28,995 bases of DNA from a virus (IMGVR_UViG_3300028925_013394:1-28995); one strand, 5' to 3'. Shown: positions 20,328 through 28,995, counted from the first letter of the stretch. Numbers and translations: made by a program. Notes: generated from the sequence alone by a model not told the origin.

Positions 20328-22091
20328 ATGCCAATCATACCGTCAGTATTTCAGCCAATTCGAGCAAATGACTTTCAGCAACGCGCTATAAAGACTTATA
20401 AGCGGTATACGGTAACTTCGACTAATTTTTCAAACGCAATTGGATATTTTCGCCATGATGCAATTTTTCGTAAAATAACTCCGCACATTTTTTCAGGCAC
20501 GGGACAGGGCGTTGATGGCCAATTGTTCCCGGTTAATGTCGATGATGATACTAACAAACATGTTATTTGGAATGGTATAGACCATAAATATTATCGTAAT
20601 AATAATCCGGCGCAGTCAGCGGATTTTTTAGACATTGAGTTGCAAAAAAGATTTTTAGGGCATTCTGCTTCAATATTTACTGCACCATATGGGCAAGTAG
20701 GCGAAAAAATAAAACATGGCACATTTAAAGTGACATCGTCGTTTGGTACTACTACAATTAATTTAGCGGATGACGGCAACGGAAATTTATATGATACGGC
20801 AATTAACTCGACCACATTTGCATCATCGAGTAATAATTTCTTTTATATGTCATTTAATGGCCTATATCAGAAATTCCTTAATTATGATACCATGGGGCTA
20901 CATTCCGGGAGTATTGAATATCAATTAAATCATGTTAATAAAGCAGCATCAATTAATGGCGGAGTTACTATAGTCCCAGGAATTGACACGACGGGCGACT
21001 ATATAAAACCGTCCGGACTTGCCGCATATCTTGATGATTTACAATATATACGTATACCACAAGATAATAAATTTGATAGATTTGGTAGATGCGACGATTG
21101 GACAATATCATTCTGGTATTGTTCTAGGAATAATGCTGTTATTATTAATAAAGATATTATAACAAAATATGCTATTAAGACAGAGCAATACCTAGATAGC
21201 ATTGATGGCAAACGAAAAACACATGATATAATACAGCCTAGGACTGGCCTCCGAACACCAAATTCATTCGATAAAATTAAAACTCCATTTGTTATAGGAG
21301 CGGACCGGATTCCCAACCAAACTAAATTTTATTTTCAAGCATCAGATGGGTCAGACTCGTTATTCATATCATCATCGTATGTAACAAGCCACCCAAATGC
21401 ATGGAATCATATTGCAGTTAGAAATAAAAGTCAAGTATGTGAAATGTTTATAAATGGCTCTTCTATAGGCAATCTGTCTGGCTCAATACCACCGGGAATT
21501 ACAGCGAATGCAGCCGATATTATAATTGGAGTAGCAGATGGCACCTCAATCGACAAAGAAGTCGATTATGAAGTTGCAGAAATTAGAATGTATGATTATG
21601 CAGTAGATGCAACTGGATTATTATCATTAGCAAATGGTCATCATTCGTCAGGCTCTTTATATCAAACAAATATTGCCGGCAATGTATTTTATAAAAACGG
21701 CCAGGCAGTAGTTTCATCACCACTACCAAAATATAATACCGGGTCAGGCGTATTTGGAAACACTTGGAATTTAGAGTACCGTGGTACTCATACATTATAT
21801 GAAAACGAATGTTTAGTCCGTGTGCCAAAAGATCAATTCAATGTCACAATGAACCCATCATCAACGTATCGTCCTGTAACAGTTGGCGTCCCATGTGAGC
21901 CGAATGAAGCTAATATGCCTCCTGGCGAATTAAGAAAAAGTTTATTTGTATCAGGAACATTGAAACCTTATATAACATCAATAGGGTTATATAATGAGCA
22001 TGCCGAAATGGTGGCCGCGGCGAAATTAGCACAGCCCATCCAAAAAAATCCAGATGTGGACATGAACTTCGTTGTTCGTTGGGACTATTAA
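20328..22091 (+). CDS. Virion structural protein with LamG-like domain and shared C-terminal module
   Basis: A 587-residue protein. Residues about 230-440 form a LamG/concanavalin-like sandwich: DDLQYIRIPQ, DDWTISFWYC, FYFQASDG, HPNAWNHIAVRN with CEMFINGSSIGNLSG, and DYEVAEIRMYDYA. A region with GNVFYKNGQAVV and WNLEYRGTHTLYENECLVRVP (about 455-510) follows, of a type seen in phage fibre or baseplate proteins. The last 40 residues match the end of the preceding protein. The start has no clear Shine-Dalgarno sequence; an ATG 5 bases upstream is in another frame. The LamG domain suggests glycan or surface contact, but binding is not shown by sequence alone. Confidence 0.7.
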   Translation: MPIIPSVFQPIRANDFQQRAIKTYKRYTVTSTNFSNAIGYFRHDAIFRKITPHIFSGTGQGVDGQLFPVNVDDDTNKHVIWNGIDHKYYRNNNPAQSADFLDIELQKRFLGHSASIFTAPYGQVGEKIKHGTFKVTSSFGTTTINLADDGNGNLYDTAINSTTFASSSNNFFYMSFNGLYQKFLNYDTMGLHSGSIEYQLNHVNKAASINGGVTIVPGIDTTGDYIKPSGLAAYLDDLQYIRIPQDNKFDRFGRCDDWTISFWYCSRNNAVIINKDIITKYAIKTEQYLDSIDGKRKTHDIIQPRTGLRTPNSFDKIKTPFVIGADRIPNQTKFYFQASDGSDSLFISSSYVTSHPNAWNHIAVRNKSQVCEMFINGSSIGNLSGSIPPGITANAADIIIGVADGTSIDKEVDYEVAEIRMYDYAVDATGLLSLANGHHSSGSLYQTNIAGNVFYKNGQAVVSSPLPKYNTGSGVFGNTWNLEYRGTHTLYENECLVRVPKDQFNVTMNPSSTYRPVTVGVPCEPNEANMPPGELRKSLFVSGTLKPYITSIGLYNEHAEMVAAAKLAQPIQKNPDVDMNFVVRWDY

Positions 22092-22110
22092 TATTTATAT
22101 TAAATAAGGA
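22089..22110 (+). promoter_or_regulatory. ATATTTAT palindrome and AAGGA ribosome site before resolvase gene
   Basis: A 16-base perfect inverted repeat TTAATATTTATATTAA covers about 22088-22103 and includes the stop codon of the previous gene. ATATTTAT at 22091-22098 is 19 bases before the next start. AAGGA at 22106-22110 is 7 bases before it. The complementary strand reads TATAAATA, the T4 late -10 sequence, but pointing away from the gene. Confidence 0.45.
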
Positions 22111-22117
22111 ACTAGTT

Positions 22118-22537
22118 ATGGCATGGAGATCGAAATCTAAATTACGTGCGAACGCAATTAAACATGGTTACAGGAGTGGATTTGAACATACAGTATCAGA
22201 TCAACTTAAGGAAAATAAAATTAAATTTGGGTATGAAGATACGGTCATAGGCTATATCAAGCCGGAGACTAAACATACATACACGATTGATTTTACATTA
22301 CCAAATGGTATATTAGTAGAAACGAAAGGTAGATGGGTTCTAGAAGATCGTAAAAAACATCTACTAATAAAACAGCAAAAACCGGAATTGGATATACGAA
22401 TGGTATTCCAATCAGCTAATACAAAAATTAGAAAGGGTTCGAAGACAACATATGGAATGTTCTGCGATAAGCATGACATACCATGGGCGGAGAAGACTAT
22501 ACCGAAAAGTTGGTTAAACGAGAAAAAAAGCTCGTAA
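22118..22537 (+). CDS. Holliday-junction resolvase, T7 endonuclease I-like
   Basis: A 139-residue protein, against 149 for T7 endonuclease I. The catalytic residues Glu23 (RSGFEHTV), Asp58 (YTIDFTLPNG), Glu68 and Lys70 (VETKGRW) have the same spacing as T7 Glu20, Asp55, Glu65 and Lys67. The KGSKTTY segment and the C-terminal WAEKTIPKSWL also fit the family. The enzyme cuts four-way junctions and branched DNA before packaging. A longer in-frame start at 22079 exists, but 22118 is chosen because AAGGA sits 7 bases upstream and the family begins near MAWRSK. T4 itself uses unrelated endonuclease VII for this job, so this is a different family in the same role. Confidence 0.92.
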   Translation: MAWRSKSKLRANAIKHGYRSGFEHTVSDQLKENKIKFGYEDTVIGYIKPETKHTYTIDFTLPNGILVETKGRWVLEDRKKHLLIKQQKPELDIRMVFQSANTKIRKGSKTTYGMFCDKHDIPWAEKTIPKSWLNEKKSS

Positions 22538-22667: not shown

Positions 22668-23594
22668 ATGAGCAAATTCGCTGTTATAACTCTTCTTGAA
22701 TCTGTAATGGGTCGTGGTAAAATCAACTCAAATGATAATATTGCATTTCATTGCCCTCTTTGTCACCATGATAAAAAGAAGATGGAAGTTAATATCGTTA
22801 CACAATATTGGCATTGTTGGGTATGTAATGCTGCTGGGAGGAAATTACCGGTATTATTTCGTAAACTAAATGTCCAGCGAGAAAAGATCGCTAAACTAGT
22901 TGAACTATTAGATGATGTAGAATATAGGCCTAGCAAAACAACTACAGATACACCTGTATTACAATTGCCCGAAGGATATAGGCCATTATGGGAATTACAG
23001 GAGATGAGTCCCGAGTATAGAAATGCTATACACTACCTTAAGGGCCGGGGCATTGGCATTCATGATATCTTAAAATATAGAATTGGATATTGTAGGAAAG
23101 GTCTTTATAAAGGCAAGATTATCATTCCTAGTCATGATGCTAATGGAAGTTTAAATTATTTTGTAGCACGTGCGTATTATTTAGAGGATAAATATAAACA
23201 TAAAAACCCACCAGCATCGAAAGATATTGTAGGATTTGAATTACATATTAATTGGAATATGCCTATTATATTAGTAGAAGGCGCATTTGATGCAATTACA
23301 ATAAAACGGAATGCAATTCCTTTATTCGGCAAGACGATCTCAAATACATTGAAACGACGAATTGTAGAAAAGGGCGTACGGAAAATTTATATATGCTTAG
23401 ATCTAGATGCACGTAAACAGGCGCTAGAGACAGCACAATATTTTATAGCAAATGGGCTGGATGTATACTTCGTCGACATTACAGGGAAAGATCCTAATGA
23501 CTTAGGATTTGAAAAAATAACGGGTATATTAAATATGACAGAAAAAATGACTGATATGGAACTTATGGAACAGAGGATACTATGCGCACTATAG
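22668..23594 (+). CDS. DNA primase, DnaG/T4 gp61 type
   Basis: A 308-residue protein. A zinc-binding motif (Cys29-Cys32, Cys50-Cys53, reading CPLC and HCWVC) is followed by a linker and a Toprim domain: Glu204 in ILVEGAFDA and the Asp245-x-Asp247 pair in CLDLDA. These metal-binding acidic residues catalyse RNA-primer synthesis. It is shorter than E. coli DnaG (581) and near T4 gp61 (342), and has no helicase-like extension. The start has no Shine-Dalgarno sequence. The last 13 bases overlap the Mre11-Rad50-like gene. Function with a DnaB-like helicase is expected, but no helicase gene is in the window. Confidence 0.9.
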   Translation: MSKFAVITLLESVMGRGKINSNDNIAFHCPLCHHDKKKMEVNIVTQYWHCWVCNAAGRKLPVLFRKLNVQREKIAKLVELLDDVEYRPSKTTTDTPVLQLPEGYRPLWELQEMSPEYRNAIHYLKGRGIGIHDILKYRIGYCRKGLYKGKIIIPSHDANGSLNYFVARAYYLEDKYKHKNPPASKDIVGFELHINWNMPIILVEGAFDAITIKRNAIPLFGKTISNTLKRRIVEKGVRKIYICLDLDARKQALETAQYFIANGLDVYFVDITGKDPNDLGFEKITGILNMTEKMTDMELMEQRILCAL

Positions 23595-26500
23595 ATATTG
23601 GAATTGATACAATAGACAAGATATATCACATTGCTGATGTACATGTTAGAAATGTCACACGACATAAAGAATATAGACTAGTCTTTAACAGATTATATTC
23701 GTATATCAAAAAAACTAAAACTAAGAATTCTTTAATATACGTAGCCGGAGATATCGTGCACGCAAAAACAGATATGTCTCCGGAACTAGTACATGTAGTG
23801 TCGGAATTCTTTAAAAATCTAGCAGATTTGGCACCTACTATTATTATCATGGGCAATCATGATTGTAACCTAAATAATAGTTATCGCCTAGATGCCCTTA
23901 GTCCGATCGTTAAAGCCTTAAATCATCAAAGGCTACACTATCTTAAAGACAATGGTATATATTGTATTTCCGGAGTACACTTTAACGTAATGTCGGTGTG
24001 TGACAAGCCAGTAGATTATATTAGAGCTGATAGTTTTGATGGAGATTATAAAATTGCATTGCACCATGGATCGGTCCACAATGCCTCCACGGACGCCGGC
24101 TTTACTTTAAGTAACACCCATGTAACTACGACTATGTTCGATGGACATGACTTAGTATTATTAGGAGATATTCATAAGCCGCAATATTTAAATGATGAAA
24201 AGACTATAGCATATGCTGGGTCATTGATTCAACAAAACCATGGAGAAGCATTAGGCCATGGCATTATGGTATGGGACTTGGCATCTAAGGCATGTGAGTT
24301 TGTCGACATTCCAAACGACTATGGATATTATACATATCATATTGAGAATGGCAAGATAATGAACCCTAGTGATGCAGTGCCATTACGTCCTAGATTAAGA
24401 CTAAAAATAAAGGATACAGACTCAGCAACTGTTAAGGAACTAGTTGCAAAAATTAAATCACAACATAAAGTCCAGGATATATCAATTCAGAGAATTAATG
24501 GACTAAATACCACTGATTCAAAAAAGAAAATTAATTTTGGTAATATACGAGATGTGGAATGGCAAAATAAGGTCATTACCGAGTATCTAACAGCTGAGTA
24601 TGCATTAGATGATAAATTATTAGACACCATACGACATATAAATCGTACAGTACATAGTAAGTTGCCAGTAAACCCATTAACGAGAAATATAACATGGATG
24701 CCAAAGAAGTTTGAATTCTCTAATATGTTTAGTTATGGAGAAAATAATTCAATCGACTTTACAAACATGCATGGACTTTATGGTATATTTGCTCCTAATG
24801 CAGCTGGCAAGTCCACTCTGTTGGATGCACTATCATTTTGCTGTTTTGACAAATGTTCTAGAACAAAGAAAGCAAAGCATGTACTAAATAATAAAAAATC
24901 TAGATTTGATTGTAAGTTTGAATTTGAATTAGGGAAGTACAATTACTTTATCGAACGGAAAGCAAAGCGGCATTCAAATGGCCATGTTAAAGTCAATGTA
25001 AATTTTTGGAGAGTAGATGCATCTGGGAACGAAGAGAACCTCAATGGGGACCAAAGAGATTCAACAAACAAAAGTATACAGCAATATTTAGGTACATATG
25101 ATGACTTTGTATTGACAGCATTGTCATTGCAAAACAACAACACCGGATTTATTGATAAGAGTCAACGAGAACGTAAGGAATTATTGTCCCAATTCTTAGA
25201 CATCGATATATTCGAACAACAGTATCAGATTGGACATGATGAAATAAAAGATACTGCGGCATTAATTAGAGAATATAAAAGAAAAGATTTTTCAACCGGC
25301 CTTGCATCATCTAAAGATATAATTAGTCAATATACGGGCTCATATGAACAAATGAAAGTTGATAAGGTAGAGCATGATGAAATGAAGACTAGCCTCAATG
25401 ATATTATTTTCACTATGACCACGGAATTAAAGAAAGTTGATGCCACATTAGACTCGGTAGAAGATGTGAAATCTGAAATTGAAAGAATGGAAGGTGAGTT
25501 GCAAGAAGTAGTTGCAAATAGAAATACTCAAAAAGAAATGATCGTCGAACAGAAGGACATCATAAAAGAAACCGAACAGAAAATAAATAAAGTCGATGAA
25601 AAGGCATTACAACATGCATTGATTGAATTGAAGGACTATAAAGATACTGTTATAAAATTAAATAACGATTTAAAATTAAAACAGCTAAAAATTCAACATG
25701 CCCAAAAGATAGTATCTAAATTAGATAAACATGCATGGGATGAGAATTGTAGTTTCTGTATGGCCAATCCTTGGTTACATGAAACTAAACAAGTTGCAGA
25801 CCTGTTGCCAAAGTTAATTGACGAAGAACAGGTTATAGAATTTGATATTAAGCATTTTGAAGATGGTATTGCAAAGGTAGAGTATGAAGATATGCCAAAG
25901 GAAAAGTTAAAATTATTAGGAAAATTAAAAGCCAAGGCAACCGACTTGGATAGAACATTAAATAATCTAGAAAGAGAACTTGAACAATTCAAATGGAAAC
26001 TTCATAAATGTCGTGAAGACATAAAAACAAGTAAATTAGAACTAAAAAAATCATTAAAACAAAAATCTGACTTAGAATTTAATAAAAATAAGAATGCCGA
26101 GATACAGGAAATTCGAGATGAAATTTCTACCGTTAATATAGATATTAGCGAGTTTGATTCGAAATTATTAACGTTATCTGGCAAGCTAAAATTGGCAGAA
26201 AAGACGAAACAAGATGCCCAAGGCGGCATAGATAGATTAAAAGAACTAGAACAACAGTACCAAGGATATGAATATTATCAAAAAGCTGTTAACAGAGACG
26301 GAGTCCCATATCATTTAATAACAAAGGCGCTTCCTCAAATTGAATCTGAAATTAATAATATTCTTAACCAAGTAGTAGAGTTTACAATCGTATTACATAC
26401 AGATGGCAAAAATATAAATGCTCATATTGTTTATGATGATGATAATTATTGGCCATTAGAATTGACGTCCGGAATGGAAAAGTTTATTTCATCATTAGCA

Positions 26501-26740
26501 ATTAGGACTTCATTGATTAATGTATCAAATTTACCAAGACCAAATTTCTTAGCAATAGATGAGGGATTTGGAGTATTAGATTCAAATAACCTTAATTCAA
26601 TGTTTATGTTATTTGAATATCTTAAGTCACAATTTGGGTTTTTGTTATGTATTTCCCATATCGATTCCATGCGTGACATTGTAGATAAATTAGTAGAAAT
26701 AAAGAAAGTTAACGGATACTCTGAAATTAACTTTACCTGA
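23582..26740 (+). CDS. 47/46: Mre11-Rad50 (SbcD-SbcC, T4 gp47-gp46) single-chain fusion
   Basis: A 1052-residue protein. The N-terminal part (about 1-300) is a metallophosphoesterase with Asp19 and His21 (ADVH), Asp57 (AGDIVHA), Asn92-His93-Asp94 (GNHD), His161-His162 and Asp196/His198 (GDIHKP). The C-terminal part is Rad50-like: Walker A with Gly409-Lys410-Ser411-Thr412 (the first Walker Gly is Ala404), a Q-loop Gln near 514 (SLQNNN), zinc-hook Cys723 and Cys726, coiled coils on both sides (about 580-720 and 750-910), signature LTSGMEK (961-967) and Walker B Asp993-Glu994. The nuclease part trims ends and the ATPase part holds and senses DNA, for recombination-dependent replication. T4 makes these as two proteins (339 and 560 residues). 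GAGGA lies 5 bases before the start. Confidence 0.9.
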   Translation: MRTIDIGIDTIDKIYHIADVHVRNVTRHKEYRLVFNRLYSYIKKTKTKNSLIYVAGDIVHAKTDMSPELVHVVSEFFKNLADLAPTIIIMGNHDCNLNNSYRLDALSPIVKALNHQRLHYLKDNGIYCISGVHFNVMSVCDKPVDYIRADSFDGDYKIALHHGSVHNASTDAGFTLSNTHVTTTMFDGHDLVLLGDIHKPQYLNDEKTIAYAGSLIQQNHGEALGHGIMVWDLASKACEFVDIPNDYGYYTYHIENGKIMNPSDAVPLRPRLRLKIKDTDSATVKELVAKIKSQHKVQDISIQRINGLNTTDSKKKINFGNIRDVEWQNKVITEYLTAEYALDDKLLDTIRHINRTVHSKLPVNPLTRNITWMPKKFEFSNMFSYGENNSIDFTNMHGLYGIFAPNAAGKSTLLDALSFCCFDKCSRTKKAKHVLNNKKSRFDCKFEFELGKYNYFIERKAKRHSNGHVKVNVNFWRVDASGNEENLNGDQRDSTNKSIQQYLGTYDDFVLTALSLQNNNTGFIDKSQRERKELLSQFLDIDIFEQQYQIGHDEIKDTAALIREYKRKDFSTGLASSKDIISQYTGSYEQMKVDKVEHDEMKTSLNDIIFTMTTELKKVDATLDSVEDVKSEIERMEGELQEVVANRNTQKEMIVEQKDIIKETEQKINKVDEKALQHALIELKDYKDTVIKLNNDLKLKQLKIQHAQKIVSKLDKHAWDENCSFCMANPWLHETKQVADLLPKLIDEEQVIEFDIKHFEDGIAKVEYEDMPKEKLKLLGKLKAKATDLDRTLNNLERELEQFKWKLHKCREDIKTSKLELKKSLKQKSDLEFNKNKNAEIQEIRDEISTVNIDISEFDSKLLTLSGKLKLAEKTKQDAQGGIDRLKELEQQYQGYEYYQKAVNRDGVPYHLITKALPQIESEINNILNQVVEFTIVLHTDGKNINAHIVYDDDNYWPLELTSGMEKFISSLAIRTSLINVSNLPRPNFLAIDEGFGVLDSNNLNSMFMLFEYLKSQFGFLLCISHIDSMRDIVDKLVEIKKVNGYSEINFT

Positions 26741-26768: not shown

Positions 26769-28995
26769 ATGCCCGCAGGAACATGGAATCTAGGTCGATT
26801 ACGAAAACATGCTGAATATGTAGGTCTTAAAGATCTAGGTATATCAATAATAGATACGACTGCCGATGCAGATCAATACTTTAATGTAGCAGAATTTCCT
26901 ACTACATTGACGGGAGGTAAAAACCTCTTTAAACTCAGGGCAAATGCAGCAACATTAGTCAAAAATTCTAAAATACATATTGAAGTTCTAGATTCCAACG
27001 GCGACCCAATTTACAACGAGCCTATTAGTTATTTAGAGTCTGATGGTACTCGAGTAATTGCGATATATATTTATCCGGATACACCATATGGTACGGCCAC
27101 GGTATATCTAGCAGGTCGAGCAATGATCGGCCCCAATGGCCGCAAATTAAGAGCCAGTCAAGATGTAAATGACCCAGATTATTTCAACTTCCCAAATACA
27201 TTATGGTCACGTACTATTCCATGTGCCCCATCTCGGTATAATACATCTGAAATTATATTTACGAGAAAGCCTAAAGTAACACTAACAGAAATTGTACAGC
27301 CATATCTGCAGCCACAAAATTTAACAAATGTTGCAACACAAAGTTTTGCAACCGGCACATGTATAATTAAGCCGAAGCCGTCAGCGATGACAACAACAGC
27401 TGTACAGTTAAATATCCAGGGCGACCCAGCACCGGCTGCGTTCCAAGGCGATGTTGCATCAAATACACCGGCGCCATACCTAGGTACGCAGATAATACCA
27501 TCACCATCAGCATTAGCGTTAGCTGACGCCGGCGGAATAGATGAAGTTGTGGCAAATGGGACATTTGATATAGCACTTGGACCAGTTACCGCAACAACAA
27601 CGAATATCATAACTGCATTAGACGAATCAATATTCGAGACGTCAGACGCATTTTTTACAACCGATATTGGCACCGGCGACGTTATTACAGTTGTGAACCC
27701 ACAGGTTCAGCCGACACAAAATGGCGCCCTATTAAATTCTAATACACAGCTAGTTCCTGGCACACAACACAACGAAGGAGTGAATTCGGCCATAGCGAAT
27801 AATATATATTCATTATCCGGATCATACCACTTTGTCATTAGTAGTGTTATTACAACAAAAAAGGCCAATGTAATACTAATACCAGAGCCTGCAGGATTCA
27901 AAAACATATCAGATGCTAATACAGGGGGAAAGTGGCAAGTAGAACTTAACTCAGCTGATGGGGTCGGTCAGATAATTGACGAAGTACAGCCAACATCTAA
28001 TTATACATGTAGTTTCACATTACCATTTGTGTATTCAACGACAGAGCAGTCTCAGTCATTTGCAGAAATAAAGATTGCAGATATAGAACCGGCAACCGGC
28101 GATGTTTATAAACTAAGGACATATTACAAAGCTGGAGGAGCGTTCGGCGATTTTATTGACGCCGGCGAAACAGTAATAGAACAATTAGAACTTCTAGAAG
28201 ATATTAATGCATTTGAAGGAACTCCATTGGATGGTGCCCAATATAATAGAATAGGGGTCTTTACTAGCTTAACAGATTACCAGACATATTGGACGTCTAG
28301 TCAAGGAGCTATACCACCAACAATTGGCATTACAGAATCATTTGAGCCAGATGATATGATGAGTGGTATACGACTAACGCCATCTGGCAACTACGGCGCA
28401 GATGACTTTGGTTATATTAAAATTAAAAATGCCTATAGGCCTACTCTAGCAAAAAATACACAATACATATTAGCAATAAATGCTTTCGCAGACCTCGCCT
28501 TTACATCAACAGACCCAAATGTTACTGATACGCCCCAATTGGATATATATATCTCCGGCAGCCAAGGAAACATTAACGTCGACGGCTTAACTTTAAATGC
28601 AAATATAACGTCGCCATTTGATATATATGAAGATTCCTTGCAAGGCAATTTTGCAGACGATGGAGCATTTGGTATCCGGATCGGGTCAATACAAGCACCC
28701 CCTCAAATAGACGACCCTAATTACCCGGCCATTTTTAGATTTGAAAGTCTATCAGACCAGATAGTTGATTTAATCATTGTCCAACGAAATGGACGATTTA
28801 ATATAGGCAATATAAGTGTAAAGACATTCAACGAATCTAAATTTACACCGAACTTTACTAGAGTCAATACACGTATCCCGACTCAGTTTTTAAAAACGCC
28901 GTTAACATTTAAGATAGTATTTTATGATAAATTAAGTAATCAGGCAGACACTGAAGCAGTAATATACCCTGTCACATTTACGGGAGAAAACACCG
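26769..28995 (+). CDS. Large virion structural protein, N-terminal part (3' end outside window)
   Basis: An ATG preceded by AAAGGA with 8-base spacing opens a frame that runs 742 codons to the last base with no stop. The N-terminus reads MPAGTWNLGRLRKHAEYVGL, then an Ile/Val-rich beta segment with YNEPISYLES. Most of the rest is Thr, Ser, Asn and Gly-rich with strong beta composition, including IYSLSGSYHFVIS near residue 352 and FTLPFVYSTTEQ near 420. It has no signal peptide or membrane segment and no catalytic motif I can see. It resembles tail or fibre proteins in composition. A rival ATG at 26762 is in another frame and stops after 17 codons, so 26769 is chosen. Confidence 0.75.
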   Translation, partial: MPAGTWNLGRLRKHAEYVGLKDLGISIIDTTADADQYFNVAEFPTTLTGGKNLFKLRANAATLVKNSKIHIEVLDSNGDPIYNEPISYLESDGTRVIAIYIYPDTPYGTATVYLAGRAMIGPNGRKLRASQDVNDPDYFNFPNTLWSRTIPCAPSRYNTSEIIFTRKPKVTLTEIVQPYLQPQNLTNVATQSFATGTCIIKPKPSAMTTTAVQLNIQGDPAPAAFQGDVASNTPAPYLGTQIIPSPSALALADAGGIDEVVANGTFDIALGPVTATTTNIITALDESIFETSDAFFTTDIGTGDVITVVNPQVQPTQNGALLNSNTQLVPGTQHNEGVNSAIANNIYSLSGSYHFVISSVITTKKANVILIPEPAGFKNISDANTGGKWQVELNSADGVGQIIDEVQPTSNYTCSFTLPFVYSTTEQSQSFAEIKIADIEPATGDVYKLRTYYKAGGAFGDFIDAGETVIEQLELLEDINAFEGTPLDGAQYNRIGVFTSLTDYQTYWTSSQGAIPPTIGITESFEPDDMMSGIRLTPSGNYGADDFGYIKIKNAYRPTLAKNTQYILAINAFADLAFTSTDPNVTDTPQLDIYISGSQGNINVDGLTLNANITSPFDIYEDSLQGNFADDGAFGIRIGSIQAPPQIDDPNYPAIFRFESLSDQIVDLIIVQRNGRFNIGNISVKTFNESKFTPNFTRVNTRIPTQFLKTPLTFKIVFYDKLSNQADTEAVIYPVTFTGENT

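Follow-up and report, generated by a model that had tools for sequence, protein, structure and literature searches.

A fused Mre11-Rad50 (SbcD-SbcC) gene of the Mimivirus R555 type on a probable contractile-tailed phage contig

The window analysed here, a linear IMG/VR fragment of 28,995 bp, contains a gene in which an Mre11 nuclease and a Rad50 ATPase are joined in a single chain (Table 1). It very probably encodes a single-chain Mre11-Rad50 enzyme of the R555-like type from a contractile-tailed marine phage, which would act as a homodimer in end processing for phage recombination and replication. The frame runs from ATG to stop over 1052 codons without interruption, its start overlaps the end of the primase gene by 13 nt, and a Shine-Dalgarno-like GAGG lies 5 nt before the ATG. 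Along the chain, the N-terminal Mre11/SbcD nuclease leads into two helices that make up a Rad50-binding segment; past a short linker comes the full Rad50/SbcC ATPase, CxxC hook included. Pfam recovers Metallophos at residues 13-200 (6.7e-11), the AAA_23 N-lobe at 380-673 (1.7e-06) and SMC_N toward the C-terminus (best stretch 809-1044, 4.8e-06), and the PHROG match is the SbcC-like phrog_77 (residues 309-1050, 1.1e-46). A preliminary description had claimed that one polypeptide holds both the nuclease and the ATPase, and the open frame, the Pfam and PHROG matches and the motifs bear this out.

Table 1. Positions of the fused gene, its motifs and its conserved upstream neighbours in the window
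Feature	Position	Strand	Remark
T7-type endonuclease I (Phage_endo_I)	22079..22537	+	conserved, upstream of primase; Pfam, locus comparison
DNA primase (phrog_47, Toprim)	22668..23594	+	conserved upstream neighbour; PHROG, locus comparison
Fused Mre11-Rad50 (SbcD-SbcC) gene	23582..26740	+	1052 aa, ATG start
Nuclease motif I, D19-V-H21	23636..23644	+	invariant in 26 relatives where residue covered
Nuclease motif II, GD57-I-V-H60	23747..23761	+	T. maritima Mre11-like GDxxH; alignment of 26
Nuclease motif III, GN92H93D94	23852..23863	+	alignment of 26
Nuclease motif IV, H161-H162	24062..24067	+	H162 invariant
Nuclease motif V, GD196-I-H198	24164..24175	+	Asp in place of first His of GHxH; alignments
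Two-helix segment, 325-340/344-358	24554..24655	+	matches Mre11 C-terminal Rad50-binding helix-loop-helix; AF2 model, conservation
Linker, residues 359-371	24656..24694	+	variable; alignment, AF2 model
Walker A, 404-411, APNAAGKS	24791..24814	+	Ala404 invariant in close family
Q-loop Gln517	25130..25132	+	alignment of 26
Coiled-coil arm 1, residues 543-715	25208..25726	+	AF2 model
Zinc hook C723-S-F-C726	25748..25759	+	Cys invariant in 26
Coiled-coil arm 2, residues 730-903	25769..26290	+	AF2 model
ABC signature T962-S-G-M-E966	26465..26479	+	alignment of 26
Walker B region NFLAID993E994	26543..26563	+	alignment of 26
D-loop L999-D1000	26576..26581	+	alignment of 26
Switch S1025-H1026	26654..26659	+	alignment of 26

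Motif invariance was scored in an alignment of 26 full-length relatives (43-91% identity), in which the key nuclease and ATPase residues are invariant and the variation is mostly found in the coiled coils. In the nuclease half, the two-metal phosphoesterase set is kept at D19, H21, D57, N92, H162 and H198, while the seventh position (PfHis206) is taken by Asp196, which may still be a metal ligand; motif V reads GDIH in the window protein as opposed to GHxH in the split enzymes. With the register set against T. maritima Mre11, the features stated for R555 are seen as GDIVH at 56-60 and GDIH at 195-198, with invariant residues. A profile of the nuclease domain, in which some split phage nucleases were included, matches T. 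maritima and other Mre11 structures as well as bacterial SbcD. In the ATPase half, the Rad50/SbcC motif set is complete from Walker A to the switch His, with Ala404 and Met965 as the departures. The motifs listed in the preliminary description are all present at their key residues, and are to be refined in two points: motif V reads GDxH in place of the canonical GHxH, and Met stands where the signature would have its second Gly. Because an Asp replaces a metal-ligand His in motif V and a Met replaces a signature Gly, activity cannot simply be assumed.

Ala404, which stands for the first Gly of Walker A, is present in all 26 relatives, and LR756501 and PTm1, which are further removed, have Gly there. 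Ala is permitted at that position by the general P-loop pattern [AG]xxxxGK[ST] (PROSITE PS00017). It had been suggested that this residue may matter for ATP use; since it is fixed in the family and allowed by the pattern, it is rather a clade trait than a lesion, and loss of ATP use is not to be inferred. A crippled P-loop is rejected, as the close relatives with Ala404 keep all other ATPase motifs.

The AF2 model of the fused protein is of moderate confidence (pLDDT 70, pTM 0.38), with pLDDT values below 50 over most of the ATPase C-lobe (918-997). In this model the nuclease is followed by cap strands (227-305), the two helices and the ATPase N-lobe from residue 372, and then by two equally long arms that flank the CxxC hook and by the low-confidence C-lobe. 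Matching PDB structures are the C. thermophilum Mre11-Rad50-Nbs1 (7zr1) and the T. maritima Mre11:Rad50/Mre11 (3qg5, 3tho). The best matches in the viral structure library are mimivirid-type and align over nearly the whole length; they come from Tupanvirus (25% identity to the window protein), Harvfovirus, Yasminevirus, Catovirus and other giant viruses. Tenacibaculum phages are next, and the list further includes A7KV18, the protein that Yoshida et al. named from a Bacillus phage. A 1009-aa 'recombination exonuclease' of Listeria phage LMTA-57 (BFVD A0A068CB47) aligns over most of the fused protein, and may be another fusion in a group with split relatives.

The head maturation protease and baseplate wedge genes of the window suggest that it most likely derives from a contractile-tailed phage. 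Its gene order is endonuclease I, primase and fusion. According to two scans, the primase is directly upstream of the fusion in relatives at 36/37 and 62/65 loci, and endonuclease I is upstream at 35/37 and 15/65 loci, respectively. On the other side of the fusion, a 742-aa open frame (26769-28995) is cut by the contig end; it is a conserved downstream neighbour (seen at 26 loci by one scan and at 44 by a second) and has no Pfam or PHROG match. The far end of the contig (243-1235) encodes a UV-damage endonuclease, UvdE (PF03851, 7.4e-53).

Homology to MR complexes suggests that two fused chains would pair into the usual M2R2 complex, which would have a pair of nuclease sites and a pair of composite ATP sites. 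The Rad50 heads would sandwich ATP and the coiled-coil arms of ~173 residues would be joined via zinc at the C723/C726 hook, while the helix-loop-helix and the ~13-residue linker would tether each nuclease domain to its own ATPase head. ATP-gated binding of DNA ends may then expose these to the two-metal nuclease, by which they would be trimmed or opened. Such end resection and opening of blocked ends would serve recombination-dependent replication and repair of the phage DNA, and the enzyme probably works together with the primase and the junction-resolving endonuclease I encoded next to it. Joining nuclease and head may also help the subunits to stay together when copy number is low, and allow the gene to move as one unit. 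The fusion was also said to fix a 1:1 stoichiometry, which is trivially true and adds little, as split Mre11-Rad50 complexes are already M2R2. This is the best explanation. What the analysis establishes is a single frame, the order of its domains, the conservation of motifs and of neighbouring genes, the class of fold and a wide distribution among phages; that the protein is active, forms a dimer and takes part in recombination-dependent replication is inferred. It is unlikely that the fused protein is mainly used for host-genome degradation or counter-defence instead: T4 gp46/gp47 are annotated as needed for host-DNA degradation too, but the conservation of primase and endonuclease I next to the fusion speaks for a part in replicating and recombining DNA, and the two roles are not mutually exclusive.

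At the junction, a capping region, a segment of helix-loop-helix length and a linker are placed between nuclease and ATPase as in R555, judging from the AF2 helices and the linker that extends to residue 371. The two-helix segment has the pattern G-x-(I/V)-R-D-(V/I)-E ... I-N-R conserved in the alignment of 26. The linker of ~13 residues compares with an estimate for T. maritima, where the end of Mre11 is ~28 angstroms from the start of Rad50 and 9-12 residues can bridge this distance (PMC3175470). An ATG at codon 373 is located directly before the ATPase N-lobe, and internal initiation at such a codon would also yield a separate Rad50-like product and hence a partly classical two-subunit complex. 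We consider this very improbable: relatives have Thr, Leu, Gln, Ile or Val at this position, and the 20 nt before Met373 contain no clear Shine-Dalgarno sequence by eye. A conserved internal start giving a separate Rad50 is therefore unsupported.

The fusion is confirmed as real and intact. Our IMG/VR scan with the window protein returned 51 loci, and at 34 of them, besides the window, the same frame is closed at both ends with no stop (44-91% identity over the whole length). The complete genome of Microcystis phage Mel-JY01 has a full-length fused homologue (43% identical), and the same uninterrupted fused frame occurs in a more distant relative from Tenacibaculum phage PTm1. Moreover, a scan of IMG/VR with a broader profile gave at least 503 related stretches, whose dereplicated members form a clade that is fused throughout; the sole 'split' row in it (L058) is a fused gene broken by an insert. 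The region 24550-24750 (codons 323-390) had been flagged for a possible frameshift or join, and no break is found there. Across codons 300-380, the window and one relative (L002) differ at codon positions 1/2/3 by 7/5/27; of the changed codons 25 are synonymous and 8 non-synonymous, and these mostly third-position differences indicate that the junction region is coding sequence. For the ungapped comparison with another relative (L006), the part beyond ~codon 540 was excluded, being out of register from coiled-coil indels. In T4, Twort-type phages and E. coli the nuclease and the ATPase normally have a gene each, but there is next to no chance that a sequencing or assembly error joined two such genes here, as the preliminary description had allowed for, given the 34 independent contigs, Mel-JY01 and PTm1, the coding pattern at the junction and relatives fused throughout the tree of the group.

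A full-length fused relative was not found among the PLSDB plasmids searched. A contig binned in an archaeal MAG (Candidatus Nitrosopelagicus; L055) encodes an 80% identical fused protein, and is most likely mis-binned phage sequence.

The architecture is already known, and the window protein very probably belongs to the Mimivirus-R555-like fused group. Mimivirus R555 was described as an Mre11/Rad50 fusion together with twelve more, including that of Bacillus phage 0305phi8-36, and plasmids, bacteria and eukaryotes are represented among them (Yoshida, Claverie and Ogata, Virol J 2011, PMC3175470). The nuclease of R555 is peculiar in having GDxxH and an Asp for PfMre11 His206. Its homologues are abundant in aquatic viral metagenomes, on scaffolds with phage primases (SPO1, Twort and S-PM2 types) and T7-gp3-type endonucleases; in that study the fusion was confirmed only for a few long environmental scaffolds and a phage origin was only suggested (PMC3175470). 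The window protein shares with R555 and these homologues the N-terminal Mre11, C-terminal Rad50, GDxxH, motif V Asp, helix-loop-helix and short linker, and a calcineurin-like phosphoesterase precedes the SbcC/Rad50 ATPase within one frame; with the aquatic homologues it also has in common that phage primase and T7-type endonuclease genes accompany it on its scaffold. Unlike R555 (1351 aa with longer coiled coils, as compared by its published description), it has 1052 aa and resides on a probable contractile-tailed-phage contig.

Several isolated phages possess comparable proteins. For instance, WWT39521.1 of Mel-JY01, named 'AAA domain containing protein', is a full-length fusion with a DNA-primase-like gene upstream, although a short ORF that is absent from the window lies between the two. 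PTm1 gp075, a 'metallo-phosphoesterase' (cf. phrog_35725), is likewise fused and has the SGME signature and GDIH in motif V, but differs by its 1318 aa, ~20% identity, longer coiled coil and Walker A Gly. The Group-B fused SbcDC proteins (Vibrio phages 150E35-1 and Va2, Rhizobium phage Y65, Acinetobacter phage Ab1-TPeters, E. coli phage IME392 and Thermus phage phiLo) also have nuclease and then ATPase on one chain with GD(I/V)H in motif V, whereas their LSGGQ signature, the lack of the HLH segment in the alignment, their 866-1082 aa and a separate clade set them apart. The fused proteins of the isolated Vibrio, Rhizobium, Acinetobacter, Escherichia and Thermus phages carry generic names. T4 gp47/gp46 and E. 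coli SbcD/SbcC consist of the same two enzymatic parts and motif set, but as two polypeptides with GHxH in motif V, so that the contrast drawn earlier with these separate proteins is upheld by the compared sequences. The fusion is not noteworthy as new, since proteins of this architecture were reported in 2011 and are common among aquatic phages and in phage sequence data. The preliminary description had itself considered that a common family of this kind might already be described, and the 2011 paper and the many phage fusions show this to be the case.

In a survey of all loci, collected with patterns that did not include motif V, the motif V Asp is found in 145/146 fused frames, and the split nucleases, with few exceptions, have His. 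The exceptions are the fused protein of Yersinia phage YerA41 (L073, GHIH), a split nuclease with GDIH (L080), L195 (GDYH) and L064 (GDFH). However, the association of Asp with fusion rests on only two clades (two independent pairs in the tree), and may therefore reflect simple inheritance. It seems rather doubtful that the fused proteins represent a distinct enzyme type in which covalent linkage and a changed metal site were perhaps selected together. In a 22-row nuclease tree the fused rows come together with weak support (64/32), in the ATPase tree they are separated without one clade being rejected (p-AU 0.137), and an 80-row nuclease tree needs three changes of state; the trees fit either one or two fusion events among the phage fusions.

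A few loci show other arrangements of the gene. In a 484-kb phage (LR756508; L058, 3564-4629), an insert of ~1 kb interrupts the fused gene near codon 201-210, just past motif V. The insert encodes a TnsA-like endonuclease domain (PF08722) in an ORF of 305 aa, had no Rfam match as a group I intron, and looks like a mobile element. In YerA41 (L073, 1402-4439), the nuclease and the ATPase N-lobe form one 827-aa gene while the C-lobe is a separate 185-aa gene, and the chain is hence cut at a different place from the usual nuclease/ATPase split. Within the genus Cuauhnahuacvirus, two genes are annotated in RHph_TM39 (L074; its record is marked as a partial genome) and one fused gene in RHph_Y65 (L070), a difference for which fission, a frameshift or an assembly problem is possible.

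A one-gene MR enzyme of ~1050 aa would be a convenient target for expression and cryo-EM. For the family, there is a modest gain: the aquatic homologues of R555, previously represented by short scaffolds, are now many full-length fused proteins on tailed-phage contigs.
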